Assembly (NCBI RefSeq): GCF_001552155.1
Contig: NZ_BCQQ01000004.1
Location: 33,432 to 97,431 of the forward strand
Origin: Actinomadura formosensis NBRC 14204
GTDB lineage: Bacteria; Actinomycetota; Actinomycetes; Streptosporangiales; Streptosporangiaceae
DNA length: 64,000 nt
Direction of reading: 5' to 3'
This document shows, piece by piece, positions 49,091-64,000 of this stretch; positions within the stretch are counted from its first letter, which is position 1, and each line of letters starts with the position of its first letter. Below the pieces are notes generated by a model that saw nothing but the letters and a program-made list of their open reading frames with translations, was not told the DNA's origin and did no database searches. A program made the position numbers and the translations under genes.

Positions 49091-49969
49091 ATGACCTTCT
49101 CCAGCACCGCCCTGCGCCTGAACCTCGCCGCCCAATACGAGGTGCTGGACGCGGGCACCGGCTCCGTGCTCGCCCGGCTCGCGGAGGTGACGCGTGTCCG
49201 CTCACCCCGGGGCAACCTTCTGCGGCCCGACCCCGTCGCCGTCCCCCGGCTCACGTTCGCGCTCACCGCGCCGGACGGCTCGACACTGCTCTACATCGAC
49301 CGCGCCGAGCACCTGAAGCTCAACTTCGTCCCGCCGCAGACCGCGCTCGTGGACGCTGACGGAACCGTCCTTGGACGTGTGGACTACGACCGGTACTCAC
49401 TGGTCCGGGAGGCGCCGGCCGGGGGCCGCGGACTTGAGGCGTACACCGATGAGCGGGGGATGCGGGTGGCCCCCGCCGCCTGTGTCCTCGACCCCGGCGG
49501 CCGGCTGCTCCTGAACGTGGTCTACGAGACGCCGGAAGATGGCGGCCGCCCCCGCCTGCCCGACGGGCAGGACGCCCGCGTCACCCGCTGGGTCACCACT
49601 GAGGGCGTCCAGGTGGCGGAACGCCGCGACGGCGTCCTCGGCTTCGACGAACGGCTCACCGGGGCCTGGCGCGCCATGATCGTCGGCTCGTTCGTCGCGT
49701 TCGCCCTCGAATTCCATTTTTCCTGGGGCGGCACTTCCGCCCCCGAATCCGTGCCCGAGCCGTATCCGGGGCACGCGGGCCTTCACGCCGCTTATGCCGA
49801 ATATCAGCGGAGGGTCGTCGCCGAGTACAGGTCACCTGTCCGCACTCGCACCGGCCTGACCTTCCGTTCGGGCGTCATCTCTGATCAGCTCGACCACTTC
49901 TACAAAGTGGCTCTCCCCCTCATGCTCGTCGTCGCCACCGTCATCTTCCTCGTCCGCCACCTGACCTGA
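49091..49969 (+). CDS. LURP-one/scramblase-like protein with C-terminal anchor (292 aa)
   Basis: No family is certain. The body consists of repeated beta hairpins (YEVLDAGTGSVLARLAEVTR, RLTFALTAPDGSTLLYIDRA, TALVDADGTVLGRVDYDRYS), as in LURP-one-related and phospholipid-scramblase-like folds. One C-terminal helix anchors the protein (VALPLMLVVATVIFLVRHLT). The start is an ATG at 49091, about 258 bp from the divergent operon, whose intergenic region has TATGAT at about 48996. It may bind lipids at the membrane. Confidence 0.55.
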   Translation: MTFSSTALRLNLAAQYEVLDAGTGSVLARLAEVTRVRSPRGNLLRPDPVAVPRLTFALTAPDGSTLLYIDRAEHLKLNFVPPQTALVDADGTVLGRVDYDRYSLVREAPAGGRGLEAYTDERGMRVAPAACVLDPGGRLLLNVVYETPEDGGRPRLPDGQDARVTRWVTTEGVQVAERRDGVLGFDERLTGAWRAMIVGSFVAFALEFHFSWGGTSAPESVPEPYPGHAGLHAAYAEYQRRVVAEYRSPVRTRTGLTFRSGVISDQLDHFYKVALPLMLVVATVIFLVRHLT

Positions 49970-50074: not shown

Positions 50075-50508
50075 TAGTCGTCCATGGCCTCTCTCACGCG
50101 CTGCTGCTGGACGCCGAGTTCGTGGACGAGGTCCCGCATCTGCCCGGCGAAGCCGTTGGCGATCTTGTTGAGAGAGGCGATGGTCTTGGCTGAGGGGCGG
50201 CCGGAAGGTCGAACAGGGCGGTACTCGCTTCACGGACCTTGCGCTGGAAGTTCTGGCGGCACAGTTGACCGCGGCACGGATCGCCTCGCTGAGCTCCGCG
50301 ACCGGCCGCCGCAGCGCCCGGGGGCGAGGTCGATCTTGGTCACACCGTCCTCCGCCGTGCACTCGGTGACGGTGCGGCCGCCGGCGGCTCCCCCGCGCCG
50401 GATGGTGGCCCGGATGGACTCCTGCGCCTCGGTGAAGTCGCACATCTGCTTCTGCATGTCGCGCTGGAAGCGCTTGAACTCCGGCCCGAGACTGAACTCG
50501 GCCATCAT
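50075..50508 (-). pseudogene. Broken YbaB/EbfC-like gene
   Basis: Begins with a good ribosome site (AGGAGG) and MAEFSLGPEFKRFQRDMQKQ, continuing to TECTAEDGVTKIDLAP. The conserved protein then continues in other frames: RALRRPVAELSEAIRAAVN, then RQNFQRKVREASTALFDLP, then KTIASLNKIANGFAGQMRDL with VHELGVQQQRVREAMDDY. Each join needs a one- or two-base indel, so at least three frameshifts have accumulated. It is a decayed relative of the YbaB-like genes at 54267 and 60060. Confidence 0.75.
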
Positions 50509-50664
50509 CGCCTCCTGTTCTTGTGGGCGGTCTGGATGACACGGCTGGTGACGGACCGGTGCCATGGACGGCATTCACCAGATGCCATTACGCCGGCATG
50601 TCCGACCCGGCGCATGCCGGTAGGGTTCGTGTTGCTCTTGCCGCGATTCGGGTCTGGAGGAACG

Positions 50665-51819
50665 GTGCTGCGGCGTTCGTCGACACTCGCTCTCGCATCG
50701 GCCATCGCGTTGGGCGCGGCCTTCGTCCCTCCGCTCCGGGAGACACCGGCGAGGGCGGCGGGCTGCCCGGAGGAACTGGTCTACGGCAGTCCCGCGAAAG
50801 AGCTGCCGCGTCAACTCTGGCCGCAGGAACGGCTGAACTTCACGGACGTCTGGGAGCACACCCGCGGCAAAGGCGTCAAGGTCGCCGTCGTCGACAGCGG
50901 CGTGGACATCGGCCATCCGCAGCTGAGGGGGCACGTCAAGGCGTACGACGTGACGAGGAGCGGCCTTCAGGACTGCGTCGGCCACGGCACCGCGGTCGCC
51001 GGGATCATCGGCGCCCGGGACATGCGCGACAAGGGCATCCCGTTCGTCGGAGTCGCCCCCCAGGCCGAGATCATCTCGGTGAAGATGGCGGTGAAGCCCA
51101 CGGGCAACAGGTCGGAGTGGGCCGCGCAGGGGATCAGGAAGGCGGTCGACCTGGGCGCGAAGGTCATCAACGTCTCGTCCCAGTCGCCCGACCTGCCCGA
51201 TCTGCGGCAGGCCGTCCGCTACGCACAGAAGCACGACGTGGTGATCGTCTCGGTCGCCGGCAACCTCACCGACCAGACCAAGCAGACCCCGCAGAAGTCC
51301 TACCCGGCGAGCTACCCCGGTGTGATCTCCGTTGGCGCCCTCTCCAAGGACGGCACACTCGCCGGTTTCTCCAACACCGTCACCCCGGTCACCGTGACCG
51401 CCCCCGGACAGGCCGTCATCAGCACCTGGCCGCGCGACTCCTACAAGCTCGACGACGGCACCAGCCTCGCGGCCCCCTACGTCGCCGGCACCGCCGCGCT
51501 GGTCCGCGCCTTCAACCCGAACCTGAACTACCAGCAGGTCAAGCAGCGCATCGAGTCGACCGCCGACGGTGCCCAGGTACAAGGCACCGGTTCTGGCGTG
51601 GTGAACCCGCTCCGGGCCGTCACCACCGTCGGCACGGGCGGCGGGAACGCCAGCACCGCCCCCGCCGCCGGTGTCCAGCGTGTCTCCATCGACCAGCCGG
51701 TCCCCGAAGACCGCTTCGGCCGCAACATGGCCCTCGCCATCGCGGGCGTGGCCCTCGCCATCGCCGCCGCCCTAGGCGTCGCGGCCATGGTCGTTCCCGC
51801 CGCCCGCCGCCGCCACTGA
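50665..51819 (+). CDS. mycP: Type VII secretion-associated serine protease, mycosin (384 aa)
   Basis: Subtilisin-family membrane protease of ESX systems. Signal region (LALASAIALGAAFVPP), then catalytic Asp in VAVVDSGVDIGHPQL, His in GHGTAVAGIIGA and Ser in DGTSLAAPYVAG. A Gly/Ala-rich linker and one C-terminal membrane helix (ALAIAGVALAIAAALGVAAM) follow. The GTG at 50665 has GGAGG four bases upstream; earlier in-frame starts would overlap the broken YbaB gene. In ESX systems it processes secreted substrates and stabilises the channel. Confidence 0.92.
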   Translation: MLRRSSTLALASAIALGAAFVPPLRETPARAAGCPEELVYGSPAKELPRQLWPQERLNFTDVWEHTRGKGVKVAVVDSGVDIGHPQLRGHVKAYDVTRSGLQDCVGHGTAVAGIIGARDMRDKGIPFVGVAPQAEIISVKMAVKPTGNRSEWAAQGIRKAVDLGAKVINVSSQSPDLPDLRQAVRYAQKHDVVIVSVAGNLTDQTKQTPQKSYPASYPGVISVGALSKDGTLAGFSNTVTPVTVTAPGQAVISTWPRDSYKLDDGTSLAAPYVAGTAALVRAFNPNLNYQQVKQRIESTADGAQVQGTGSGVVNPLRAVTTVGTGGGNASTAPAAGVQRVSIDQPVPEDRFGRNMALAIAGVALAIAAALGVAAMVVPAARRRH

Positions 51820-51855
51820 CCTTTGGGTCGGCGGTCGCCGATCGTGGGTGCCGCT

Positions 51856-53052
51856 TCAGACTTGGCGGGTGATGCGCACGGCGATGGGCAGAGCGAGCGC
51901 GAGCGGGCGGAGCGGCTCTGGGCACTCCGGTGAGAACTCCAGCCACATGCGGCTGTTGTCGGCCTTGCTCTTCGTCCGCAGGGAGGCGACCTCCCGGCCG
52001 GTGGTGTCGGTGACGGCATAGCGGCCTCCATCCTGGTGGACGGTGCCGAGCAGCGTGCCACCGGCCGAGCGCAGAGACATCTCCCCACGCCCGCCGAGTT
52101 CGCCGAGGCTGTTCCCGTCCGCGTCGAGGACGGTCATACGCTCCCTGCCCAGAGTCCGGGGCATCCGGTTGATGATGAGCATGGTGCGCGCATGGGGATC
52201 GCGCAGGACGATGCTCCTGCGTCTCTTGTTTGGGTTGGTGGCGAAGAAGCTCGCTCCCTCCGTCGACTTCTTCATCAGCCGGCCGCAGGCCTGGGCCAGG
52301 AGAGCGCCTCCGCGTTCGTTGCGGTAGCGGCCTTCGCCGTTCACGAGGACGCGGTCGGCGTCGAACAGCGCACGCGGCGACGGTCCTGGCACCTCCTGGC
52401 CGCGGTCGTCCAGCACGCGCCAGGTACCGCCGAGGATCTCGATGGTCGCGGCGTGCACCGCCTCCAGCCAGCCGGCCGGCAGCGAACGGTCCCGCAGCAG
52501 CGTGGCCACCGCCTCCTTCTGGTCTCGCCGTCCGACCTTGGTCACGGTGTCGATGCCGGGTGCCGCCGCCGGGTCGTACCAGGTCGTCCATACCGGGTCG
52601 CTGATCGGCCAGGTCAGCCCGACCGCGTGCACAGCGCTCGACGGGATCGTCGCCTCGTCGTCACGGTGGCGCAACGCGATGCCGTCCCCCCTGATGGTGA
52701 CGATGAGACGGCTCCTATGCACGGTGAGCGCCCAGATGACACCGACCAGGCCGACCATCAGGCCACCGCCGCCGTAGACGATGAGGGGCCCCGCGACCGT
52801 GCCGGCGTAGCTGGTGGGCAATGTGGACGCGCAGAGACCGAGGCCGATCAACGGACCGGCCACCGCCATGGCGAACGGCCACCGGTAGGCTCGCGGCCCC
52901 AGGGTGACCCGGAGTTCCGGTGCGCCCTTCACGCCCGGCGTCCGCCGGGCGAGGCCCGCCTGGCCGGCCCATCGCCTGCGCCACCAGATCCGGGCGGCCA
53001 CCGGGCAGCCGACGGCGGCGACCAGGGCGACCAGCGGCAAGAACGACTGCAT
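51856..53052 (-). CDS. Membrane protein with LURP-one-like domain (398 aa)
   Basis: N-terminal helix (LPLVALVAAVGCPVAARIWW), a second pair of helices near residues 60-110 (WPFAMAVAGPLIGLGLCAST, GGGGLMVGLVGVIWALTVH), and a C-terminal beta-rich domain. That domain reads RSIVLRDPHARTMLIINRMP, MTVLDADGNSLGELGGRGEM and GRYAVTDTTGREVASLRTKS, a scramblase/LURP-one-like pattern. The ATG is two bases after the 41-aa frame. Converges on mycP, 36 bp apart. Probably part of the ESX-associated operon; role unknown. Confidence 0.65.
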   Translation of the reverse strand: MQSFLPLVALVAAVGCPVAARIWWRRRWAGQAGLARRTPGVKGAPELRVTLGPRAYRWPFAMAVAGPLIGLGLCASTLPTSYAGTVAGPLIVYGGGGLMVGLVGVIWALTVHRSRLIVTIRGDGIALRHRDDEATIPSSAVHAVGLTWPISDPVWTTWYDPAAAPGIDTVTKVGRRDQKEAVATLLRDRSLPAGWLEAVHAATIEILGGTWRVLDDRGQEVPGPSPRALFDADRVLVNGEGRYRNERGGALLAQACGRLMKKSTEGASFFATNPNKRRRSIVLRDPHARTMLIINRMPRTLGRERMTVLDADGNSLGELGGRGEMSLRSAGGTLLGTVHQDGGRYAVTDTTGREVASLRTKSKADNSRMWLEFSPECPEPLRPLALALPIAVRITRQV

Positions 53053-53054
53053 GC

Positions 53055-53180
53055 TCAGACCTTCAGGGTGCTCGCAGCCTCCGCGCCATCACGGCGCTGG
53101 GCGACCACGTGCAGTTTCTGCCGGACGTCGTGGAGTTCCTCGACCCGGGCCTTGAGGTCCTGATCCGCCCACTCGGTCAT
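53055..53180 (-). CDS. Small protein upstream of the LURP-like gene (41 aa)
   Basis: MTEWADQDLKARVEELHDVR then QKLHVVAQRRDGAEAASTLK and Val. Hydrophilic and helical, with a stop two bases before the next ATG. Its ATG overlaps the stop of the 53177-53380 frame (ATGA). Could be a real small protein or a gene fragment. Confidence 0.45.
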   Translation of the reverse strand: MTEWADQDLKARVEELHDVRQKLHVVAQRRDGAEAASTLKV

Positions 53181-53380
53181 GACGGCATGCGCCGTCGCAG
53201 TTCGAAGCCGTACAACATGAAGGCGTCCGTGCTGATGTCATGGGGAGCACCGTTGAGGGTGTAGCGGGCCCCCTTGAGGAGGCCCATCGCACTGTGCCTC
53301 GTGTTTGTCGGCAAGGACGCGAATCGTCTCGGCCGGGTGCTCATGTTCCACGTCGAGTACTCCGCCCTTCCGTTGATCAC
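53177..53380 (-). CDS. Short frame, possible gene remnant (67 aa)
   Basis: GTG-started frame reading VINGRAEYSTWNMSTRPRRF, later LLKGARYTLNGAPHDISTDA and FMLYGFELRRRMPS. It ends in an ATGA overlap with the next frame. Upstream the frame is closed by a TAG, so the beginning of the original gene may be lost. No family is recognised. Confidence 0.35.
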   Translation of the reverse strand: MINGRAEYSTWNMSTRPRRFASLPTNTRHSAMGLLKGARYTLNGAPHDISTDAFMLYGFELRRRMPS

Positions 53381-53701
53381 GTACCGCCTCGTGATGGAGT
53401 ATGACGGACTGGTATGCCCCTACGGGCTCTGATTGAAGACCGCCCGGCTGCCGACCACCAGAGCGTTGGTTGATGCTCTGGCAGACACATGTCCGAGACG
53501 TCAAGACCGCGCACGACCGGATCCCAAGATGGCTGTTGGCGGGCGAGTGACCACATCGATTGCCCTGCACGGCCGAATCGCAGCGGCGGGGACCGCAGCC
53601 CGTGTTGGTGAAGTCCGTGATTAACGACATGACGCTGCTCTGCTGAGGCCACTACCGGCGCCGTGACGGTGACGGCTCGACTGACGATGTCGCTCAGGCG
53701 C
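53381..53701. other. 320-bp stretch with decayed or non-coding sequence
   Basis: No intact gene. Short minus-strand frames (for example RFGRAGQSMWSLARQQPSWD) are present but switch frames and cannot be assigned. It looks like decayed coding DNA inside the ESX-like operon. Confidence 0.35.
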
Positions 53702-54208
53702 TCAACGCATTGAGGTGGAATCGTTCCACAATGGACCCGCCGATCCGCGGACGGCGGCTTTGATGGTTTCGGCATCCTCCTTGAAAGCGCCCAGCTCGCA
53801 CACTTTGACCGCAGCGTGTTCCGACCTCCATTCCGGGTGGTACATGCGGTAGGGCAGTTGCATTGGTGCTTGCTTGGGCCAAGCCATCAACCAGTCGCCC
53901 TTGGCGCGACCGGGTGCCTGAACGATCCGAACCTCCTCCAACTGAGTCCAGAGAATCCGAGTCGCCTGGCCGCGTGCTCTCACCTCCATCCCCCCGTCGT
54001 CCACCCGGAACTCCATCGGATGGTAGGCGTACGGGAGCAGGAGCACGCCACCGACGAGAAGGACGAAAAAGAAGATGATCAGCGTAAAGCTAATGACTGG
54101 ATCCAGGCCGAGGAAGGTGCCCGCGACCATTAGTACTGCCAGCCCCAGTGCCCCCAGGGTGGACTGCCATATCGGTTTCTTCTCTGCGTAGAAGACATCA
54201 GATTGCAT
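53702..54208 (-). CDS. Small membrane protein, PH-like (168 aa)
   Basis: Two adjacent membrane helices (GALGLAVLMVAGTFLGLDPV and SFTLIIFFFVLLVGGVLLLP). A soluble beta-rich part of about 95 residues follows (HPMEFRVDDGGMEVRARGQA, RILWTQLEEVRIVQAPGRA), a layout like the bacterial PH-domain membrane proteins. The ATG at 54208 is used; GTG 54217 is possible. Lies 58 bp after the YbaB-like gene in the same direction. GC content is lower than the surroundings. Confidence 0.65.
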   Translation of the reverse strand: MQSDVFYAEKKPIWQSTLGALGLAVLMVAGTFLGLDPVISFTLIIFFFVLLVGGVLLLPYAYHPMEFRVDDGGMEVRARGQATRILWTQLEEVRIVQAPGRAKGDWLMAWPKQAPMQLPYRMYHPEWRSEHAAVKVCELGAFKEDAETIKAAVRGSAGPLWNDSTSMR

Positions 54209-54266
54209 CAGCCTCACCGGATGCTGCTGTTGTGGGTGCCGTACCGCCTAAAGAACCGGCGTCCGG

Positions 54267-54716
54267 CTATCCCATCATCTTGCGAAGTCTGTCGAGTTGC
54301 TCGGCTGCGGCCCGGGCAGGATTCTCTGAGCGGGCTACGGCGGCGGTACTCTGTTCGATACGGTCAGAGACCTCTTGGATGGTTCCCTTGGAAACCATTT
54401 CTTCCAGCCGAGTGACATCCCCCGTTAGTGGCGCCATCAGTTCCTGACTCTTCGTGGCCAGGGACTGCTGTGCGGCGAGTATGGTCTTGGTGATCTCTTC
54501 GGACAGTGCTTCGGATCCTTGCTTCATGGCTCGCGGATTGATGTCGAGTCGGTCGAGCATCCCGTTGGGCTGCACAGTGACCCGGATGTAACCGTCCTCA
54601 CTCTCCGCCTCACCTGTGAGTTCGCTGAGTTGGTCAACGACGGCGAGTGCCTGCTTCACTTGCTTCTGAATCCGGTCGATTTCCCGGTCGAGTTCGGGGT
54701 TTCCGGTGCCTGCCAC
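54267..54716 (-). CDS. YbaB/EbfC family nucleoid-type protein (149 aa)
   Basis: Full YbaB-like fold: helix (NPELDREIDRIQKQVKQALA), strands (EDGYIRVTVQPNGMLDRLDI, with NPRAMKQGSEALSEEITKTI), then a C-terminal helical tail. YbaB-like proteins recur in actinomycete ESX clusters, where EspL of ESX-1 is related. The sequence is less GC-rich than the average. Lies between the WXG-like membrane gene and the PH-like gene. Confidence 0.82.
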   Translation of the reverse strand: MAGTGNPELDREIDRIQKQVKQALAVVDQLSELTGEAESEDGYIRVTVQPNGMLDRLDINPRAMKQGSEALSEEITKTILAAQQSLATKSQELMAPLTGDVTRLEEMVSKGTIQEVSDRIEQSTAAVARSENPARAAAEQLDRLRKMMG

Positions 54717-54758
54717 TCTTTCTCCTGGTTCTGATGGAATTTGTGTCTACTTCGCAGA

Positions 54759-55841
54759 CTATGCCTGGGGAACGGGAACCGTGGGCTGAGCCCAGTCGAT
54801 GTTGATGTCCTTGAAGGACGTCCCGCCGCCCAGGTTGACCTCCAGCTTGGCGAAGTTCAGGCCCGCCGCCGAAGCAATGTCCTGCAGCGGACCGATGGCG
54901 ATCCCGGCCACCCCCAGGACGGCCGTGACCGAGGCGGCGGTTCCGGCCGACAGGATTGCGCCCTGAATCAACTTTGCGATCCTGAAGAAGATTCCGACGT
55001 AAGGAGTGTTCTCGCCAATCGAGAAGGCTATGATTGCCGCTAGAGAAATCATTGCGAAGCCGAACATGGCGTTCTGAATGAAGTGCAGTTGCTGAACAAG
55101 TTCGGTCAGCGCTTGGCTGTTCTTGTCGGCGGCGGCGGCGGTCTGTTCAACTTCTTTCTTGAAGATCTCGGCCCAGTTGTCGAATGCGCTCTTGGAGTCG
55201 CCTTCCCAATTCTTGTCGAGCGTCTTGGCAATGCCTTCCCAGGTGCCTCCAGTCACTCCTTCTAGATTGGTTTTGGCTGCGTTCCAGCCGCCGATCGCCT
55301 CTTGTATATCGCTGTCTATTGGCGTGAAAAGCGCCCAGAGGATGGTGGACGCGATCGCGGTAGGGGCAAGGGTCTTTGAGGCTCCGTTGGCCGTGGCTAT
55401 GGCTATGTTCTTGGCGAGCAGTGCGCCGATTCCGGCTCCCGCCCAGCCCGCACCCGTGAGGGCGCCTTCCTTCGGCGCAAAGCCCCAGGAGCTGGAAGGT
55501 TTGGTGTATTGACTCTTGGGAGCGCGCTTGGCTCTGGTGTCGGCGGAGTTGGCGATCTCGGCCTTTGCAATGGTGTTGGCGACCTTCACCAGCCCCTCCG
55601 ACGCGGTCTTGAGTTGCTTGGCTCCCGCGTCAATGCTGTTAGAGAGGGTGCTTCGTGAGCTCTCGTAGGAACTTGAGAAGAGAAAGTGGCAGATCACGCC
55701 GAAGGCGAGGGGGTTCAGGTCGCAGGCCTTCTCGGTGTACTCATGGGCCACCTTCATATAGGAGAGCGGTTCGGAGGACATTTCTCCCGCGGTCTCAGCG
55801 ATCTTTTCTGCGTGCGCGCGAAGCTCTTTGGAAGGTGCCAT
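54759..55841 (-). CDS. WXG100-like protein with membrane helices, probable ESX substrate (360 aa)
   Basis: Two helical N-terminal regions. The second carries a WXG-like turn, NWEGDSKSAFDNW (about residues 217-229), flanked by long amphipathic helices. Hydrophobic segments near residues 167-185 and 262-330 (AMFGFAMISLAAIIAFSIGE, LIQGAILSAGTAASVTAVLG) could span the membrane. WEGDxxxAFD recurs in the 61435 gene. It precedes YbaB in transcription and follows eccC, as ESX substrates often do. Base composition is visibly lower in GC. Substrate or structural role uncertain. Confidence 0.7.
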   Translation of the reverse strand: MAPSKELRAHAEKIAETAGEMSSEPLSYMKVAHEYTEKACDLNPLAFGVICHFLFSSSYESSRSTLSNSIDAGAKQLKTASEGLVKVANTIAKAEIANSADTRAKRAPKSQYTKPSSSWGFAPKEGALTGAGWAGAGIGALLAKNIAIATANGASKTLAPTAIASTILWALFTPIDSDIQEAIGGWNAAKTNLEGVTGGTWEGIAKTLDKNWEGDSKSAFDNWAEIFKKEVEQTAAAADKNSQALTELVQQLHFIQNAMFGFAMISLAAIIAFSIGENTPYVGIFFRIAKLIQGAILSAGTAASVTAVLGVAGIAIGPLQDIASAAGLNFAKLEVNLGGGTSFKDINIDWAQPTVPVPQA

Positions 55842-55902
55842 CGAAACCTCCTGGTGGTGTGTCTTGATGAGCTCGCCGGTCTTTATGTCTAACGAAGGAT
55901 CT

Positions 55903-58900
55903 CTAGGAAATGGGGTCGTCGCGGTGGGCGGTTTGGATTAGGCGGGTGCCGGTGCGGCGGTCTATGTGGTAGCCGCGGCCGGGGGGGAGCTTGTGGGGCT
56001 TGATGTTGCCGAGCAGGATGCCCTCGTCCTTGTTGCCGGACATCAGCAGGCCAGGCGACGCCATTTCCTTGATGCGGGTGATGGCCGGGTCGAACATGCC
56101 GCGGCCGGCGCCGCCCATGGCGCGGGCGAGGATGATGTGCAGGCCGATGTCGCGGGCCTGCGGGAGGAGTTCGACGAGGGGACGCAGCGGGTTGTCGGAC
56201 GTGGCGACCATCTCGTAGTCGTCGATGATGAGGAACAGGTCGGCGCCCGTCCACCACGAGCGGGAGCGGAGCTGGTCGGGGGTCAGGTCGGCCGGTGGGA
56301 GCCGCTGCATCATCGCGCCGCGGATGTCGTTGACCAGTGAGGTCGCCGCCGGCGCGGAGGCGCCGAAGCCGATCTGGTGTTCGGTGTTGGCGACGTCCAG
56401 CAGCGAGCGTCCGTAGTCGATGAAGATGATGCGGGCCTGGTCGGGGGTGTAGCGGCTGGTGATGCCGGTGGCGATGTGCCGCAGCAGGTTGGACTTGCCG
56501 CATTCGGCGTCGCCGAGCACCAGGAAGTGCGGGTCCTGGGTGAAGTCGAGGTAGACGGGGGAGAGCGACTCCTCGTCGATGCCGATGGGGATGCGCATGC
56601 CGGTCTCGGCCGGGGTCGGCAGCGACGACACCGGCAGGACGTCCGGCAGCATGCGGACCTGCGGGGCGCGCTGGCCGGTCCACGCCTCGTTGACCGCCTG
56701 CACCATCTTGAGGACGCCGTCGTTCAGCGACTCGTCGGCGCCGCCGCCGTCGAGGCGGGGGACGGCGGTGAGGAAGTGGTAGCCGTCGCGGGACAGGCCG
56801 CGGCCGGGACGTCCCTCGGGGACGTTGTCGGCGAGCTTCCGGTCGATCTCCGACTCGTACGGGTCGCCGAGCCGCAGCTCCAGCTTGGTGCCGAACAGGT
56901 CGCGGATGTTGCTGCGGAACTCGGTCCACTTGTTGGACGAGGCGATGATGTGGATCCCGTACCCGAGGCCGCGGGCGGCGAGCTGGGTGATGGTGTCCTG
57001 TGTGGCCTCGTAGTCCTGGCGGAGCGTCAGCCAGTTGTCCACGACGAGGAACACGTCGCCGTAGCCGTCGCCGGGGTGCTCGCCGGACGCGCGCATCCGC
57101 CGGTAGGTCGCGATGCCGTCGATGCCGCGCTCGGCGAACTCCCGCTCGCGCTGCTCCAGCAGCCCGCTGACCTCGGCGACCGTCCGGCGGACCCGGTCGG
57201 CGTCCAGGCGGGTGGCGATCCCGCCGACGTGCGGCAGGTCGGCCAGCGCGGCGAGCGCGCCGCCACCGAAGTCGAGGCAGTAGAACTGCACCTCGGCGGG
57301 GGTGTGGGTGAGGGCGAGGGACGCCATCAGCGTCCGGATCGTGGTCGACTTGCCGCTCTGCGGACCGCCGGCGATGCCGACGTGGCCGGCGCCGCCGGAC
57401 AGCTCCAGCCAGTACGGGTCCCGGCGCTGGTGGAACGGCTTGTCGACGATGCCCGCCATGGCGTAGAGCTTGCCGCGGCCCTCCCAGCCGGCCGTCGTGA
57501 GCCCGTACTCGCGGGTGACCTGCAGCGGCGGGAGCATCTCGTTCAGCGCGGGCGGCTCGTCCAGCGGCGGCAGCCAGATCTGGTGCGCCTTCGCGCCGTG
57601 GCCGGCCAGTTGCCGGACCACCACGTCGAACAGCGCATCCTTGGACTTGTTCTCCTCCGGCTCCGGTGCGGGCGCGTCCGGCTGTTCGACCACCTGCGGC
57701 CGCATGTAGTTCGCCAGGTACGGGACGACCTGGGCGGCGACCTGGCCGGTCTGCCGGCCGGTGTCCTGCTTGTGGGGCTGCTCGTCCACCGGGCCCGACA
57801 CGTACGCCGCCTTGAACCGCACCATCGGCTCGGTCGCGAACTTCAGGTAGCCGTTACCGGGCGCGGGGGGCAGTTCGTAGGCGTCGGGGACGCCGAGGAC
57901 GACCCGCGATTCCATCGCCGAGAACGTCCGCAGGCCGATCCGGTAGGACAGGTGCGTGTCGAGGCCGCGCAGCTTGCCCTCCTCCAGGCGCTGCGAGGCG
58001 AGCAGCAGGTGGACGCCGAGCGACCGGCCGAGCCGTCCGATCATGACGAACAGCTCGGCGAAGTCGGGCTTGGCGGACAGCAGTTCGGAGAACTCGTCCA
58101 GGACCAGGAACAGCGTCGGCATCGGCGGCAGGTCGGCGCCGTCCAGCCGGGCCTTCTCGTAGTCGCGCAGCGAGGCGTAGTTGCCCATGGCCCGCAGGTA
58201 CTCCTGCCGCCGCACCATCTCGCCGTGCAGCGCGTCGTACATGCGGTCGACCAGCGGGAGCTCGTCCTCCAGGTTGGTGATGATGGCGGAGACGTGCTCC
58301 AGGCCGTCCATCCCGAGGAACGTCGCGCCGCCCTTGAAGTCGACGAGGACGAAGTTGAGGATGTCGGGCGCGTGCGTCATGGCGAGGCCCAGCACCAGCG
58401 TGCGCAGCAGCTCCGACTTGCCGGAACCGGTGGCGCCGATGCACAGGCCGTGCGGTCCCATGCCGCCCTGCGCCGACTCCTTGATGTCGAGTTCGATGGG
58501 GCGCCCGTCGGCGTCCAGCCCGATCGGCACCCGGAACCGGTTGCGCTGGGCGCGCGGCCGCCACACCCGCGCCGGGTCGACCTCGTACGGGTTCTCGACG
58601 CCGAGGAGGGACGTCAGCGTCATGTTGCCCGACAGGACGTCCTCTTCCTCGGTGGTGTCGTTCGTGCTGCTGCGGAACGGCGACAGCTGGCGGGCGAGGC
58701 TCTCCGCCTGCGGGATGCTCACACCGTCGGGGGCGCCGATCGAGGACGGGACGTCCTTGCCGGCCCGGTCCTTCTTCAGCATGTGGACCTTGCCGGCGGC
58801 GACGTTCAGCCGCAGCGTCCCGCCCTCGGTGGTGAAGCCGACGGTCTGGCCGAGGTCGATGACGCAGACGCCCTCGATGCCGTCGGCGGCGAGCTGCGAG

Positions 58901-59880
58901 TCGTAGGACGCCATGCCGCCGTCCACCACGACCACGTGCAACGGCAGTTCACCGGACGGACGGCCCGCCACGAACCGGGAGCGGTCCTTCACCTCCGGCC
59001 CGAGCAGGACCTCCAGCTCCGACATCGTCGGCGCGATCCTGCGGATCTGCCCCGCGGCGTCGTGCTCGGTGGGGTGCAGCGCGTGGGGCAGCCACTTCAC
59101 CCAGTCCCAGTGCGGAAGGTGCTCCTGGGACGTGCAGACGCTGATCTGCACGTCGTCGGGGGAGTGGAACGTCGCGATCTGCATGAGCATGGCGCGGAGC
59201 ATGGCCCGCCCCGCCTCCACGTCCCCGGACAGGAAGATCCGCGAGAACGAGCGGAGGTTGATCGCGACGGGCAGCGCCGGGACGGTCGAGTGCGTCCGGA
59301 TGAAGCGCCGCAGCGCGCCGGCGCTCATCGGCTCCAGGTCCTCGATGGGCTTGGTCTCCGGCGCGATCAGCTGGACGGCGAGCCGCTGCGGGCCCGCCCC
59401 GACCCGCACCTGGCCGAAGTCGCCGTCCTCGGCGCGCCGCTCCCACAGCCGGGAGCTCATCACGATCGACCACAGCCGCGTCGGGTCCGGGTTGTACCAC
59501 TCCAGGGCCTCGCGCTGCTGGGTGGCGGCCTTGCGCACCTTTGTCCGGACCTGCCCGAGATAACGCAGGTAGTCGCGCCGTTCGCTGTTCAGTTTCGATT
59601 TGCGTTCGCCGGACTTCTGGCCGACCTGGCTGAACATCATGCCGAACATCGACAGGCCCATCATCCCGCCCGCGACCATCTGCAGCGGGTTGGAGTTGGG
59701 GTTCAGGAACATGAACGCCATCGCGCCCGAGCCCGCCGCCATCGGCAGGTACATGAGCACGCTGCGGAACCCGTCGGTGGTGATTTCAGGCAGCTCGGGC
59801 GGTGATTCCAGCAGGACCTCGCCCCGTGGCATCTCCGGCGGCTTCCGGCGTTCTTTGCGCCGCACCAGTACCGTGCTCAC
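55903..59880 (-). CDS. eccC: Type VII secretion ATPase EccC, fused EccCa/EccCb form (1325 aa)
   Basis: FtsK/SpoIIIE-type motor of ESX secretion. Two N-terminal helices (YLPMAAGSGAMAFMF, LQMVAGGMMGLSMFGMMF) anchor it. ATPase 1 has P-loop GATGSGKSE, LVDFKGGATF and FLVLDEFSELL. ATPase 2 has GGPQSGKSTT and VFLVVDNW. ATPase 3 has GDAECGKSN and LFLIIDDYE. The linker region PPYL-like text is absent. The single 1325-residue chain is normal for actinomycete EccC. Divergent from a YbaB-like gene across 179 bp. EccB, EccD and EccE are not in the window. Confidence 0.95.
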   Translation of the reverse strand: MSTVLVRRKERRKPPEMPRGEVLLESPPELPEITTDGFRSVLMYLPMAAGSGAMAFMFLNPNSNPLQMVAGGMMGLSMFGMMFSQVGQKSGERKSKLNSERRDYLRYLGQVRTKVRKAATQQREALEWYNPDPTRLWSIVMSSRLWERRAEDGDFGQVRVGAGPQRLAVQLIAPETKPIEDLEPMSAGALRRFIRTHSTVPALPVAINLRSFSRIFLSGDVEAGRAMLRAMLMQIATFHSPDDVQISVCTSQEHLPHWDWVKWLPHALHPTEHDAAGQIRRIAPTMSELEVLLGPEVKDRSRFVAGRPSGELPLHVVVVDGGMASYDSQLAADGIEGVCVIDLGQTVGFTTEGGTLRLNVAAGKVHMLKKDRAGKDVPSSIGAPDGVSIPQAESLARQLSPFRSSTNDTTEEEDVLSGNMTLTSLLGVENPYEVDPARVWRPRAQRNRFRVPIGLDADGRPIELDIKESAQGGMGPHGLCIGATGSGKSELLRTLVLGLAMTHAPDILNFVLVDFKGGATFLGMDGLEHVSAIITNLEDELPLVDRMYDALHGEMVRRQEYLRAMGNYASLRDYEKARLDGADLPPMPTLFLVLDEFSELLSAKPDFAELFVMIGRLGRSLGVHLLLASQRLEEGKLRGLDTHLSYRIGLRTFSAMESRVVLGVPDAYELPPAPGNGYLKFATEPMVRFKAAYVSGPVDEQPHKQDTGRQTGQVAAQVVPYLANYMRPQVVEQPDAPAPEPEENKSKDALFDVVVRQLAGHGAKAHQIWLPPLDEPPALNEMLPPLQVTREYGLTTAGWEGRGKLYAMAGIVDKPFHQRRDPYWLELSGGAGHVGIAGGPQSGKSTTIRTLMASLALTHTPAEVQFYCLDFGGGALAALADLPHVGGIATRLDADRVRRTVAEVSGLLEQREREFAERGIDGIATYRRMRASGEHPGDGYGDVFLVVDNWLTLRQDYEATQDTITQLAARGLGYGIHIIASSNKWTEFRSNIRDLFGTKLELRLGDPYESEIDRKLADNVPEGRPGRGLSRDGYHFLTAVPRLDGGGADESLNDGVLKMVQAVNEAWTGQRAPQVRMLPDVLPVSSLPTPAETGMRIPIGIDEESLSPVYLDFTQDPHFLVLGDAECGKSNLLRHIATGITSRYTPDQARIIFIDYGRSLLDVANTEHQIGFGASAPAATSLVNDIRGAMMQRLPPADLTPDQLRSRSWWTGADLFLIIDDYEMVATSDNPLRPLVELLPQARDIGLHIILARAMGGAGRGMFDPAITRIKEMASPGLLMSGNKDEGILLGNIKPHKLPPGRGYHIDRRTGTRLIQTAHRDDPIS

Positions 59881-60059
59881 TGGACCGGGCTCCCCTCTGG
59901 CCGTCAGTCGTCGCAGCCCGACATCATACGGATAAAGTGCGTCCCCCGGCTTTCAGGACAGCACGCTAAAGCGAATCGGACGCCCGGCGCCACGCCCAGA
60001 CCAGTGGGAACACCAATCGTCGCCAGGCGGCGGAGAACCTACAGAACTCGGAGACCACG

Positions 60060-60512
60060 ATGTTCGGACCGGACGGCCTCGACCTCGGCGACCTGCTGCG
60101 CCAGTCGCAGGAGCGGATGGCCAAACTCGCCGCGGTGCGGGAGCAGATGGCGGGGCTTCAGGGCCGCGCGGAGTCGCAGGACGGCCGCATCAGCGTGACG
60201 AGCACGGCCGAGGACCCGCTCGCCGAGATCAAGATCGACCCCAGGGCGATGCGGATGGGGTCGGAGGAGCTGGCGGCCACGCTCCAGGAGACGGCCCGGC
60301 GCGCCCGCCAGGACCTCGACGCGCAGGTGCAGAAGATCACCGCCGACCAGTTCGGCGGCACCGAGAACCCGATGGACGTGCTCAAGGACCAGGACGCGCT
60401 GAAGAAGTCCCTCACCGACATGCAGGGCGTCTTCGAGCAGGCCGGGCGCCAGTCCCAGCAGATGATGGACGAGCTGCACCGAAAGCTCGGCCTCCGGGAC
60501 ACCGGCAAATGA
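60060..60512 (+). CDS. YbaB/EbfC family protein (150 aa)
   Basis: YbaB-like: helix GDLLRQSQERMAKLAAVREQ, strands DGRISVTSTAEDPLAEIKID with PRAMRMGSEELAATLQETAR, then a long helical tail ending in LHRKLGLRDTG. Shares the I(D/N)PRAM motif with the 54267 gene. First gene of a plus-strand operon divergent from eccC. ATGA overlap with the next gene. Confidence 0.85.
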   Translation: MFGPDGLDLGDLLRQSQERMAKLAAVREQMAGLQGRAESQDGRISVTSTAEDPLAEIKIDPRAMRMGSEELAATLQETARRARQDLDAQVQKITADQFGGTENPMDVLKDQDALKKSLTDMQGVFEQAGRQSQQMMDELHRKLGLRDTGK

Positions 60513-60940
60513 CGGCCCGGTGGGGTGAGGCGGTGCTCGCCGCGGAGCCGTTGCGGCGGCGCGTGTCCGACGACTCCGGGACGCGGGCCCTGATCGTCGC
60601 CGCCCTGCTGGTCTTCCTGGCCGGTGCCGTGGTGGCCGGGGTGCTGGCCTACACCGGGCGCTGGCGGTCGTGGTACCCGGGCCGGTTCCGGGTGACCTTC
60701 ATGCCGCTGGCGGCGCCGTGGTTCGCGGCCGCCGCCCTGCTGATGGCCGGCCTGGTGGGGCTGGACTTCCTGCTGGACCCGATCCCGGCCGGCCTGGCGC
60801 TGCTCGGTGTCGCGCTGGCGATCGCCTGCCTGCTCGTCGCCGGTGTCTACGCGATCCATCCCCCGCGGCGCATGCTCCCCCGCTGGATCAGGCATCTGGA
60901 AGGGGACGGCTCGCCGTCCGGACCGGCGGGCGGCCGTTGA
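60509..60940 (+). CDS. Small polytopic membrane protein (143 aa)
   Basis: About four hydrophobic helices (LIVAALLVFLAGAVVAGVLA, WFAAAALLMAGLVGLDFLLD, LALLGVALAIACLLVAGVYA), with a loop RWRSWYPGRFRVTF. No family recognised. The ATG overlaps the YbaB stop and the stop overlaps the next ATG by one base (TGATG). Context suggests an ESX accessory membrane protein. Confidence 0.6.
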   Translation: MTARWGEAVLAAEPLRRRVSDDSGTRALIVAALLVFLAGAVVAGVLAYTGRWRSWYPGRFRVTFMPLAAPWFAAAALLMAGLVGLDFLLDPIPAGLALLGVALAIACLLVAGVYAIHPPRRMLPRWIRHLEGDGSPSGPAGGR

Positions 60941-61431
60941 TGAGGCGGCCGGCCCGGAGCGGTTCTCCCCCCGCCGGCGCGGGCTCCCGCGCGTGGCTCA
61001 ACATCGCCGTCCTGGGAGCCGCCGCGCTGGTGGGCCTGGTGGTCCTCGCGCGGCCGCTGTGGTGGTACGCGACCGGCACACCGACGAAGGCGGCGGTGGA
61101 GCGCTGCGACGATCCCGGCCGGAGGCCGCTGGTCTGCGGCGGGACGTGGACCCTGCCGGACGGTACCGAGCACCACGGCCGGATCGCCGGGGCGGGAGAG
61201 GGCGACGAGGGGAAGACCGTCCCCGTACGCGCCTCCGCGTCCCATGCCGCGACGTTCTCCCTGCGGCTCGTGTACGGTCCCGCCCTCGTGCTGCTCGTGG
61301 CCGCGTTCTTCGGCTACGTCTCCTACCGGCAGCGAGCCGTCGCGCGAAAGAACGCGGGAGGGAACACGCGGGCGGACGCCCCGGGTGCGCGGCCCGCGGG
61401 GACGGATCCCGGGCAGGGCCTGTCCTCCTGA
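60940..61431 (+). CDS. Two-helix membrane protein with Cys-pair loop (163 aa)
   Basis: A helix near residues 20-40 (LNIAVLGAAALVGLVVLARP) and a second near 115-135 (LRLVYGPALVLLVAAFFGYV) enclose an outer loop with CDDPGRRPLVCGGTW, two Cys that could form a disulfide. The tail is Arg/Ala/Gly-rich. Last gene of the operon, convergent with the next gene across three bases. Function unknown. Confidence 0.6.
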   Translation: MRRPARSGSPPAGAGSRAWLNIAVLGAAALVGLVVLARPLWWYATGTPTKAAVERCDDPGRRPLVCGGTWTLPDGTEHHGRIAGAGEGDEGKTVPVRASASHAATFSLRLVYGPALVLLVAAFFGYVSYRQRAVARKNAGGNTRADAPGARPAGTDPGQGLSS

Positions 61432-61434
61432 GCG

Positions 61435-62370
61435 TCAGCGGTGGGGCTGGGTCTTGTCGACGTACTTCTTGCCCGCGTCGTCCTCCGAGCCGTAGGAGTC
61501 GCCCCAGTTCGCCCACGGGGTGGCGAGGATGTTGCCTCCGTTGAGGGTGTCCGCCGTCCCGAGCGTGGCGGCGAGCTTCTCGGGGACCGTCAGCGGCGCC
61601 ACCCGGGAGGTGAGCGGAACGCCCAGCCCGGTCGCCGGGTTCGCGCCGAAGACCTCCGACGTCCGCTTGGTCAGCAGGTAGGCGAGAGCGCCCTTGAGCA
61701 TGTCGTCGGCGCCGTTCATCGTCGCCTTCCCGAAGGTCGCGAAGACCTCGGAGTTGCCGTTGAACAGCTGGCCGACCATGTTCGTGCCGAGGAAGACGCC
61801 CCAGACCGCGGCCGCGCCCACCGAGATCTTCTCGATGATCGTCGAGCTGACGTTGAGGACCTTGTAGGCCATGGACGCGAACTGGTTCGCCTGGGCCTCC
61901 AGCTCCAGCGCGGCGGGCGCGCCGACGATGGTCCCGGCCGCGATGCAGATCGCCGTTGCGAAGATCGCCAGCAGCGTCATGATGATGAACATCAGGTAGA
62001 TGAAGACGCCGATCAGGACGGCGAGGATGTACAGCGCGACGATCACCGACCACGCCATGACGATGGAGAAGTCGAGCTGGTCGGAGTAGTCGTCCATCTT
62101 GCCGTCGAAGGCGGTGCGGTCGTCACCCTCCCAGGCGCTCGTGGAGACGCGCCGCGTCAGCTCCTCGATCTTCTGCTGCGCCTTCTCCAGCTGGTCGACC
62201 ATGTCCTTCCAGCCGTCGGCCGCCCGCCACAGCTTGCCGGGGTTCCCCTGCGCCTGGTAGACGATCGGCACGATCGGGATCGCGGCCGGAATGATCACCG
62301 ACACCCACAGCGACTCGAAGAACGCCGCCTTCGCCAGGCCCTCCGCGGCGTCCAGTGCCTCGGCCGCCAT
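61435..62370 (-). CDS. WXG100-like protein with membrane helices, probable ESX substrate (311 aa)
   Basis: Amphipathic N-terminal helices around a WXG-like turn, SAWEGDDRTAFDGKM (about residues 79-93). Two or three strong membrane helices follow (SIVMAWSVIVALYILAVLIG, VFIYLMFIIMTLLAIFATAI), then a soluble C-terminus ending YGSEDDAGKKYVDKTQPHR. WEGDxxxAFD matches the 54759 gene. Its ATG overlaps the stop of the 149-aa gene upstream (ATGA), suggesting a co-translated partner pair. Confidence 0.7.
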   Translation of the reverse strand: MAAEALDAAEGLAKAAFFESLWVSVIIPAAIPIVPIVYQAQGNPGKLWRAADGWKDMVDQLEKAQQKIEELTRRVSTSAWEGDDRTAFDGKMDDYSDQLDFSIVMAWSVIVALYILAVLIGVFIYLMFIIMTLLAIFATAICIAAGTIVGAPAALELEAQANQFASMAYKVLNVSSTIIEKISVGAAAVWGVFLGTNMVGQLFNGNSEVFATFGKATMNGADDMLKGALAYLLTKRTSEVFGANPATGLGVPLTSRVAPLTVPEKLAATLGTADTLNGGNILATPWANWGDSYGSEDDAGKKYVDKTQPHR

Positions 62371-62819
62371 CAGATCCCCTCAAGCGTCGACTGGCGCTCG
62401 GCCTCGTCCTGGATGCCGGCCGTCTTGACGAGCCTGTCGTTGATGTCCATCGCGTGCTTGCTCTTGTCGATGAGGTCCTGGTCGGCGAACTCGATCATCT
62501 GCGTGTACGTCAGGGCGGCCGAGATGGCGAACATGGTGTACGCGTCGGGCTGGGCGTCGCGGGGTTCGGCGTCGAGCTTGTAGCGCGCCTGCTTGAACAG
62601 CTCCATGAGCTCCTTCTCCACCGCGGCGCCGAGCTTCTTCAGTTCGTCCGGTGAGAACCGCACCTCCCCGCTCGTCTTGCCGGGCGGCGCCGGGGGCGCC
62701 TGCGGGGAGGGAGACGGGGTCGGTGTTGCGCCTCCCGGCGGCGTGGCGGGGTGGCCGGCGGCCGGGGCAGGGGCGGGGCTCGGGCCGTTCAGGAGGTCGG
62801 CGACTCTGTTCTCACCCAT
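62370..62819 (-). CDS. Helical protein with Pro-rich N-terminus, partner of the WXG-like gene (149 aa)
   Basis: Pro/Ala/Thr-rich N-terminal 45 residues (SPAPAPAAGHPATPPGGATP) are followed by a helical region (LKKLGAAVEKELMELFKQAR, YTMFAISAALTYTQMIEFAD, QDLIDKSKHAMDINDRLVKT). No defined family. The ATG at 62819 follows a clean leader. Likely acts with the WXG-like protein as an ESX substrate or chaperone. Confidence 0.6.
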   Translation of the reverse strand: MGENRVADLLNGPSPAPAPAAGHPATPPGGATPTPSPSPQAPPAPPGKTSGEVRFSPDELKKLGAAVEKELMELFKQARYKLDAEPRDAQPDAYTMFAISAALTYTQMIEFADQDLIDKSKHAMDINDRLVKTAGIQDEAERQSTLEGI

Positions 62820-62961
62820 GCGAAGGCCTCCGTTCTGTGAGCGGTGAGCGAACCTGAAGAGACAACGGGGCATCGACCGACGGTCGGATAGCCCCCATCA
62901 TGGCAGGCATCCACAGGGCGGCTTCGCGGCACAGAACTTCGTGCGACGCGAGGCCGCTCCG

Positions 62962-63486
62962 TCAGGTGCGGCCCTCCAGTTGGGCGAAGGCGACGTTCCA
63001 CCAGGACTCGGTGTCGGTGAAGGCGGCCGGGTCGAGGGCGCTCAGCTCCTCCCGGAGCCGTGCGGCGGGCAGGGCGCGGGTGGCCTTTCCCTGGTCGGCG
63101 CGGATGAGGCGTTCGAGATGGTAGAGGAACTCGACGAAGGCGCCGAGCGTGGAGTTGACGACCTCCAGCCCGGTGGTGTCGCCGAGGTCGAGGAGCATGA
63201 CCGCGCCGCTGTCACCGTCCAGGCAGTAGTACATCTTCTCGTCCGGGACGGCGCCGAGGACGAGGAGACCGAGTGGCTCGTTCTCGCCGACCTGTATTTC
63301 GAGGACGTTGAAGAGCTCGAAGTCGCCCTCGACGTATGCGGTGAACAGCAGCGGCACCTGGGCCGGTATGGCGGCCTCGGGCGGCAGGGCGCTCAGGTCG
63401 AACGTCATCCGCTCGACGCGGTCCGGGGGCAGGTAGAGGAGCCCGTCCTCACCCCACAGGCGCACCATGTCCTGATATTCGAGCAT
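62962..63486 (-). CDS. SUKH-4-like immunity protein (174 aa)
   Basis: Cytoplasmic protein with a SUKH-type pattern: MVRLWGEDGLLYLPPDRVER at the start, YCLDGDSGAVMLLDLGDTTG in the middle (strand-turn-strand reporting the bound face), and VNSTLGAFVEFLYHLERLIR. These features fit SUKH-4 family proteins, which neutralise secreted toxins. The start ATG overlaps the stop of the next gene upstream (TAATG). The toxin partner is not in the window. Confidence 0.75.
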   Translation of the reverse strand: MLEYQDMVRLWGEDGLLYLPPDRVERMTFDLSALPPEAAIPAQVPLLFTAYVEGDFELFNVLEIQVGENEPLGLLVLGAVPDEKMYYCLDGDSGAVMLLDLGDTTGLEVVNSTLGAFVEFLYHLERLIRADQGKATRALPAARLREELSALDPAAFTDTESWWNVAFAQLEGRT

Positions 63487-63992
63487 TAGGCTCCCTCAGT
63501 GATGAGTCCCTGGGCGACGAGGAAGTCGTACCAGCGGTCCTCGGGCGGAGCGGGGATCTGCTCGGCGTAGCCCGGGCCGAGGACGTACCGGTCGATGAAG
63601 TCGTCGATACCCCCGGTCAGCCGCTCGAAGCGGGAGTCGAAGGCGTACTCGGCGTCCATCTCGGGGAACCACCACACCGCCCCGGTGGCGCGCTCGACCA
63701 TGAAGGGGAAGTCCATGTTCCCCCCGAAGCACACCCAGGCGTCACGGCCACCGTCGAGGTCGTCGCAGTAGAACTGGTTGGCGCCGATGGTGCGGGTGGA
63801 GTGGACGGTGATGACGCCGGCGTACAGGCCGTCGGTCACCAGCAGCAGATCCCGCAGCTCCGGCGGAAGGCCGGTGAGGACGTCCGCGGAGCCGGACGCG
63901 CCGGGATTGAACTCGGCGAACATATAGGAATCGGGTCCCGATTCCAGGCTCTGCCGGATGGAATCGATCTTCTGGCGAAGCCGGTCGTTCAT
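63486..63992 (-). CDS. SMI1/KNR4 (SUKH) family immunity protein (168 aa)
   Basis: SUKH/Smi1-Knr4 fold: LPPELRDLLLVTDGLYAGVI (helix-strand with the LLxxxDGL core), VCFGGNMDFPFMVERATGAV and VWWFPEMDAEY, then FDSRFERLTGGIDDFIDRYV. SUKH proteins serve as immunity to polymorphic toxins. Immediate overlap with the SUKH-4 gene makes a tandem immunity pair. The ATG near the window edge gives a complete frame, but genes beyond 64000 are unseen. Confidence 0.82.
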   Translation of the reverse strand: MNDRLRQKIDSIRQSLESGPDSYMFAEFNPGASGSADVLTGLPPELRDLLLVTDGLYAGVITVHSTRTIGANQFYCDDLDGGRDAWVCFGGNMDFPFMVERATGAVWWFPEMDAEYAFDSRFERLTGGIDDFIDRYVLGPGYAEQIPAPPEDRWYDFLVAQGLITEGA

Positions 63993-64000
63993 TCGATGAT

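Follow-up and report, generated by a model that had tools for sequence, protein, structure and literature searches.

The structurally best-studied ESX motor is that of Thermomonospora curvata, which belongs to the same bacterial family as Actinomadura formosensis, and what such environmental systems export is little known. This ESX, of the type VII secretion system class a (T7SSa), provides the closest solved EccC and EsxB for the locus described here and shares its core of EccB, EccC, EccD, mycosin and a WXG100 pair. For substrates, the nearest described counterparts come from mycobacteria and from toxin systems. Mycobacterial PE/PPE pairs, which are attended by EspG, resemble the cargo below in the order of genes (PE-like before PPE-like), in a C-terminal motif that most PE-like proteins carry and, as far as models tell, in fold. 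Polymorphic toxins are marked by a conserved carrier with an exchanged payload; those with SUKH immunity, and the T7SSb LXG toxins with their Lap partners, likewise combine a small helical partner, a WXG-like carrier, an exchangeable payload and immunity genes. The ESX-1 sets EspA/EspC/EspD, EspE/EspF/EspH and EspL join larger and ~100-amino-acid (aa) secreted proteins with a YbaB-like chaperone, a combination that probably recurs here (PMC6107294, PMC6319747; statements on cited papers, here and below, draw on excerpts of them). In M. marinum, EspH is predicted to be YbaB-like, binds EspE and is required for secretion of EspE/EspF, and its authors proposed YbaB-like proteins such as EspH and EspD as dedicated chaperones (PMC6107294).

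Here a stretch of 64,000 nucleotides from A. formosensis NBRC 14204 (hereafter the window; bases 33432-97431 of contig C4, which totals 97431 bases) was analysed. The EccC-mycosin half of an Actinomadura ESX locus, of the ordinary T7SSa kind and severed by a contig end, lies at its close, and the odd genes around EccC are exchangeable cargo cassettes in two variable slots that flank it. We consider it probable that these cassettes hold a predicted PE/PPE-like export pair, a YbaB-like protein that is likely dedicated to the pair as its chaperone, and genes with a likely accessory or immunity role. A literature search found no account of such cassettes outside mycobacteria, which does not prove that none exists.

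Half of an ESX locus at a contig end

Contig C4 stops at window base 64000 and the assembly holds no sequence past this point, and thus EccB and EccD, which a previous annotation made from the letters alone (the sequence-only reading) had rightly listed as absent from view, are out of sight in the window. Both were found on contig C6 of the same genome, where one strand carries, in order, EccD, EccB, two WXG100 genes, two more that are small or WXG-like, a mycosin and then a MinD/ParA-type ATPase. The genome carries one EccB and one full-length EccC of the window type. The three-ATPase EccC and the mycosin that had been proposed in the window were both upheld by family models, the latter with an NCBIfam score slightly short of its cut-off (Table 1). 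The window EccC matches the solved T. curvata EccC (PDB 4nh0) at 1954 bits, and EsxB of C6 matches EsxB of the T. curvata EsxA:EsxB structure (4lws) at 2.9e-43.

Of 125 loci that carry a related EccC, the best 80 were compared for gene order. Most belong to Actinomadura, Nonomuraea, Streptosporangium and their kin, and their genes were called with a simple purpose-made caller, which leaves gene ends and some short genes uncertain. EccD was called in 76 of the 80 loci, on the strand opposite to EccC in all 76 and at most 500 bp from it in 68, while EccB, EsxA-like and EsxB-like genes were present on 59, 68 and 65 of the 80 pieces, respectively. Usually the locus runs from a mycosin through slot A, EccC and slot B to EccD and EccB, and on to the WXG100 pair, the WXG-like genes and a second mycosin; in several Nonomuraea loci EccB is more distant or inverted. 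Where a mycosin lies on the far side of EccC (55 loci), the gap between the two is <1 kb in 23 and at least 3 kb in 27. Based on this placing of EccD and EccB in relatives, and on the closeness of EccC and EsxB to the T. curvata proteins, the locus is an ordinary ESX: EccB, EccD, mycosin and the WXG100 pair are all in the genome, though split over two contigs, and form one locus in relatives. A core divided over two chromosomal loci was entertained once EccB appeared on C6, and the gene order in relatives makes it unlikely.

One usual component is missing. EccE (PF11203) had no match in the genome (69 of 123 first-look candidates scored), and among 36 same-genus genomes there was one weak match, in G003, on a different contig from its EccB locus; some ESX-4 variants are without EccE (PMC11217815). 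Nor was EspG matched in the genome (37 of 50 candidates scored) or in any of the 36 same-genus genomes, with G042 as the positive control. In these two respects, and in the two slots around EccC that hold cargo cassettes, the locus differs from the ESX of T. curvata.

Several other EccC neighbourhoods were recorded in passing. A second EccC type, ~40-42% identical to that of the window, was found in L130, L132, L133, L134, L135, L137 and L138 (genomes G002, G038, G006, G037, G028 and G039), where a weak EccD-like gene lies close by and a MinD-like ATPase is a frequent companion. No EccB match exists in G027, G037, G038 and G039, which carry this second type, and therefore a type VII system without EccB may exist there. 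Contig C28 of A. formosensis encodes, away from the ESX locus, a 1514-aa EccC/EssC-like protein (L139:6674-11218; 29% identical over the match). At L106, L110 and other Streptosporangiaceae loci, a small and a WXG-like protein (clusters c20 and c15; 21 and 23 loci) adjoin EccC, and the C-terminus of the WXG-like one looks cell-wall-hydrolase-like, as judged by eye only.

Probable cargo cassettes in two slots flanking EccC

Clustering of the genes in the 80 loci yielded a YbaB-like family as the largest cluster (97 genes in 54 loci), together with 66 genes for PPE-like membrane proteins in 46 loci and 34 genes for a small PE-like partner in 25. The same-strand gene that precedes a PPE-like gene was the small partner in 33 of the 66 cases and a longer protein of cluster c35 or c39 in 12 more. 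The set found in slot B of the window (YbaB-like protein 2, the 143-aa protein, the PPE-like and the PE-like protein; Table 1) reappears in slot B of L050, L053 and L120 and in slot A of L057, and it is also found beyond the second mycosin in L067, whose piece stops before any YbaB gene. Four further cassettes lie elsewhere in the genome, on contigs C28, C171, C21 and C18. The G+C content of slot A, at 0.59-0.64 over 53000-55999 (0.59-0.60 at 54-56 kb) versus ~0.70 in the rest of 40-64 kb, is compatible with a recent arrival.

Table 1. Features of the ESX half-locus and its slots, in window coordinates
Position	Strand	Assignment	Evidence
49091-49969	+	292-aa protein; family recurs around PPE-like cassettes	no Pfam match; 299-392 bits to three relatives in L051, L058, L117
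50521-51819	+	Mycosin (MycP), a subtilase, bordering slot A on the left; start codon uncertain	Peptidase_S8 2.4e-47; NCBIfam mycosin 267.5 bits, slightly below cut-off 278.75
51856-53052	-	398-aa membrane protein, cassette accessory: PH-like part plus C-terminal part resembling the 292-aa family	bPH_10 4.2e-5, below cut-off
53702-54217	-	171-aa protein, slot A; candidate immunity/accessory	hydrophobic segments at residues 18-36, 37-55; no Pfam match
54267-54716	-	YbaB-like protein 1, likely chaperone of slot A cargo	YbaB_DNA_bd 3.5e-13, above Pfam cut-off
54759-55841	-	Slot A cargo: PE-like domain (residues 3-102) fused to PPE/WXG100-like membrane protein	profile A1 3.9e-15; WXG100 6.1e-4 at 179-251, below cut-off
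55903-59880	-	EccC, three-ATPase motor, 1325 aa	three FtsK/SpoIIIE stretches; NCBIfam EccCa 1001.7 and EccCb 873.5 bits, both above cut-offs
60060-60512	+	YbaB-like protein 2, likely chaperone of slot B PE/PPE-like pair	YbaB_DNA_bd 6.1e-9, above Pfam cut-off
60509-60940	+	143-aa protein, three hydrophobic segments	accompanies slot B cassette in L050, L053, L057, L067, L120
60940-61431	+	163-aa protein, two hydrophobic segments; candidate immunity/accessory	155 bits to same-place gene of L053
61435-62370	-	PPE/WXG100-like cargo protein, four hydrophobic segments	PPE 3.8e-4, below Pfam cut-off
62370-62873	-	PE/WXG100-like partner, directly upstream of PPE-like gene; start codon uncertain	profile A1 vs PE25 0.0064; helical-hairpin model
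62962-63486	-	SUKH-4 immunity protein	SUKH-4 2.8e-33
63486-63992	-	SUKH-4-like immunity protein; start 8 bases from contig end	SUKH-4 8.4e-4, below cut-off

Between or beside the YbaB and PPE-like genes stand small membrane proteins with two hydrophobic segments or members of the 292-aa family, varying by cassette. The 163-aa protein matches the N-terminal part of a 298-aa gene in the C18 cassette (3.8e-7, small set), and the C-terminus of the 398-aa protein gives weak matches to the 292-aa family (best 3.6e-6, small set). Kinship of the 171-aa protein with its two-segment counterparts in the C28 and C171 cassettes was considered and dropped, as it showed no detectable similarity to the two-segment proteins of other cassettes; those of C28 and C171 are akin to one another. 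For the accessory genes, little came out of the first Pfam scans, and PADLOC returned nothing for the seven proteins tried. The label ‘scramblase-like', previously attached to the 292-aa and 398-aa proteins, was not confirmed: the former is without a Pfam match and the latter shows only a bacterial PH domain, below the cut-off.

The two hydrophobic WXG-like proteins of the window (54759-55841 and 61435-62370), correctly picked out in the sequence-only reading, belong to one PPE/WXG100-like family, and their matches to WXG100 or PPE stay below the Pfam cut-offs; for 61435-62370, the PPE family (PF00823) scores 21.0 bits against a cut-off of 26. When 34 of the 66 clustered genes were aligned with both window proteins (alignment A2), Pfam PPE was matched by 12 of the 36 members (E value 0.01 or better, best 5.6e-11) and WXG100 also by 12, and no EspA/EspE family was matched by any; PF00823 was carried by 2 of 40 homologues among the matches listed. 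The PPE-like profile finds WXG100 structures at ~1e-4 to 1e-5, a designed coiled coil as well, and PPE15 at 0.07. A model of 61435-62370 (mean pLDDT 72, pTM 0.60), confident over its first 220 residues, resembles PPE15 and PPE41 in Foldseek with E-values that are not significant, and a second structural comparison could not tell PPE from BAR or other folds with long helices.

The small partner was aligned from 33 of the 34 genes plus the window protein (alignment A1). PE (PF00934) was not among the families matched by the 34 PE-like members, EspC was matched by two of them, and the match of the profile to PE25 is marginal (Table 1). The model of the small partner is a helical hairpin that reaches a TM of 0.81 to PE25 by target length and fits WXG100 hairpins too. 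An aromatic-xxx-D/E motif, which has the shape of a known export signal (PMC6954902), stands at one aligned place near the C-terminus in 27 of the 34 proteins (200 shuffles: mean 9.8, maximum 17); a strict Y is found in 13 of the 34, and the motif is missing in the window's own PE-like protein. Profile A1 also matches the slot A protein (43 bits; Table 1), a natural PE-PPE-like fusion, and therefore the two parts can be argued to work together. Because the family cut-offs are not reached, the window cargo is PE/PPE-like and is not filed as PE/PPE. It differs from the mycobacterial PE/PPE proteins in missing the Pfam PPE and PE cut-offs and in having a YbaB gene in place of EspG, and from the ESX-1 Esp sets both in its family matches (EspA/EspE in none of the 36 PPE-like members, EspC in two of the 34 PE-like ones) and in cassettes that are multiple, dispersed, exchanged between slots and equipped with small membrane genes.

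Once exported, the PPE-like protein would insert into or act on a membrane, and the small membrane proteins encoded alongside would protect the producer. There is a substantial possibility that the PPE-like membrane proteins are instead structural, adhesive or channel proteins exported to the envelope, with the small membrane genes as assembly partners: no toxin domain was recognised, and the C-termini of the PPE-like proteins of the slot B cassette are not visibly swapped between species (71-81% identity in three). Against this stand the accessory genes between YbaB and PPE-like genes, which vary by cassette, and the layout on contig C28 (L151:5371-7997), where a 212-aa open reading frame (ORF) corresponds to just the C-terminal half of the PPE-like protein next to it and is flanked by two near-identical 180-aa membrane-protein genes, in the likeness of an orphan toxin/immunity array.

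YbaB-like proteins beside the cargo genes

The two YbaB-like proteins of the window, both noted earlier, score above the Pfam cut-off. The family has nine matches in the genome, namely a housekeeping protein (C8), the two in the window, two domains of one C6 protein and one each on C28, C171, C21 and C18. The PPE-like profile picks up six genes, of which two are in the window and the others at those same four places, plus a weak match to EsxB. A YbaB gene lies at most 2 kb from every one of the six PPE-like genes, and all six directly follow a PE-like gene or, in slot A, include the PE-like part themselves. The seventh non-housekeeping YbaB protein (C6) adjoins a carrier with a WXG100_2 domain, and the housekeeping one adjoins neither cargo type.

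The pairing extends to the relatives. Of the 97 YbaB genes in the 80 loci, 74 lie at most 3 kb from a cargo gene and 23 do not, compared with a mean of 49.1 (standard deviation 4.4, maximum 61) in 500 shuffles of the accessory genes. From the side of the cargo, a YbaB gene lies within 3 kb of 42 of 66 PPE-like genes, 15 of 18 WXG100_2 genes and all seven genes of a third cargo family. At least two YbaB matches are found in 35 of 38 genomes with EccB and in 1 of 21 without (59 genomes, kinship within the genus not corrected); the exceptions are G004, G051 and G056 (EccB, fewer than two YbaB matches) and G027 (no EccB, at least two). G036, of the same order, has 20 YbaB matches in a 5.8-Mb genome in which EccB and EccE are also present.

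A YbaB tree (102 rows, 78 of them labelled; two two-domain YbaB proteins omitted by a length limit) tracks cargo class, with five changes for the three classes versus a shuffled mean of 24.1 and none of 200 shuffles as low, a result that near copies help. YbaB-like protein 2 groups at 99* with the YbaB proteins of the same cassette in four other species' loci, one of them in slot A, and not with its slot neighbours. Pairwise coevolution, by a mirror-tree test, was weak. In the YbaB fold and in genes beside those of substrates, the proteins share the features of the YbaB-like ESX chaperones of the EspD/EspH/EspL type. The most economical reading is that they likewise serve as chaperones, standing where EspG stands for PE/PPE pairs: a YbaB protein would keep its PE/PPE-like pair soluble and deliver it to EccC, which would export the pair together with or after EsxA/EsxB.

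A role for the YbaB-like proteins as regulators that bind DNA and control the ESX genes, in place of a chaperone role, appears improbable. It would fit their match to the YbaB/EbfC family above the Pfam cut-off and to solved YbaB structures (~2e-5), and deletion of espL in M. tuberculosis reduces whiB6 expression (PMC6319747). However, they reach only 21-22 bits against the NCBIfam YbaB/EbfC model (cut-off 49), the copies sort by cargo class in the tree and accompany cargo to sites far from ESX, and partner-gene transcription is not the explanation in the cases of EspH and EspL (PMC6107294, PMC6319747).

A probable second cassette type divided by the assembly gap

At the very end of the window the two SUKH genes called earlier were borne out, the second being weak alone and backed by its homologues: of the 10 proteins listed, counting that of the query itself, 2 carry SUKH-4 and a third bears the name Knr4/Smi1-like. 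On C6, from EccD toward the contig end and on the strand opposite to the core genes, come a YbaB protein with two domains, a protein of 109 aa, a WXG100_2 protein of 164 aa and finally a 183-aa ORF (L006 1809-2357) that overlaps the WXG100_2 carrier by 8 bases and runs off the contig. No Pfam, NCBIfam or PADLOC family was found for this payload ORF and no toxin domain is recognisable in it; an HNH-type nuclease look was noted by eye only.

In the same place in A. kijaniata (L054), the YbaB protein, the partner and the carrier are 49%, 68% and 64% identical to those of C6, respectively. After the carrier come an unrelated ORF that is nucleotidyltransferase-like and a gene of 116 aa, the payload and SUKH genes being without a match. 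A conserved carrier with exchanged payload and immunity, as in polymorphic toxins, is thus seen in this one full-set comparison and in other payloads of relatives, such as an RHS protein after the carrier in L060 and a WXG100_2 protein fused to a glutamine deamidase in L078. A 163-aa WXG100_2 carrier and its payload are separate ORFs at L054:8375-9787, L060:1-1453 and L056:1-1297. As separate ORFs occur in several species, the split between carrier and payload is not one sequencing error; it sets these cassettes, including that of C6, apart from T7SSb LXG and polymorphic toxins, as does the YbaB gene in the cassette.

The second cassette type, divided by the assembly gap, would consist of the YbaB protein, small helical partner, WXG100_2 carrier and toxin-like ORF of C6 plus the two SUKH genes at the window end, and would deliver an exchangeable antibacterial toxin with the SUKH pair as its immunity. 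Most likely, the SUKH pair guards against this separate C6 toxin rather than against the PPE-like proteins. The proposal in the sequence-only reading of membrane-spanning WXG-type effectors with SUKH protection therefore survives in outline, in that the two hydrophobic proteins belong to one PPE/WXG100-like family carried in exchangeable cassettes, while the SUKH pair faces the WXG100_2 carrier and toxin-like ORF and probably has that toxin as its target.

That C4 and C6 are not neighbours, a rearrangement having split the ESX genes in this strain, is very unlikely. The two contig ends do lack a direct overlap (longest common word <15 bases), yet SUKH genes at the end of C4 and a toxin-like ORF running off C6 agree with a carrier-payload-immunity order, and once joined the genes would match slot B of L054 combined with that of L050, L053 and L120. 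Least credible is the earlier idea of a reduced ESX without EccB and EccD, which rested on the lack of both in the window and is rejected: EccB and EccD, with a WXG100 pair and a second mycosin, are on C6 and the two lie beside EccC in relatives, so that ordinary ESX genes next to this one, named in the sequence-only reading as the finding that would overturn its idea, are essentially what relatives and C6 provide.

The seemingly stripped-down ESX locus is thus a product of the contig end. More speculatively, ESX systems of Streptosporangiales might export PE/PPE-like membrane proteins as mobile toxin-immunity cassettes, each with its own YbaB-fold chaperone replacing EspG, and the mycobacterial EspA/E and PE/PPE substrates might descend from, or share an origin with, antibacterial cargo of this kind. 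Should the cassettes prove to be real cargo modules, they would offer substrates from a non-pathogen with which to study cargo choice by EccC, would suggest YbaB-type chaperones as a general alternative to EspG, and would tie the PE/PPE and Esp substrates of mycobacteria to interbacterial conflict.

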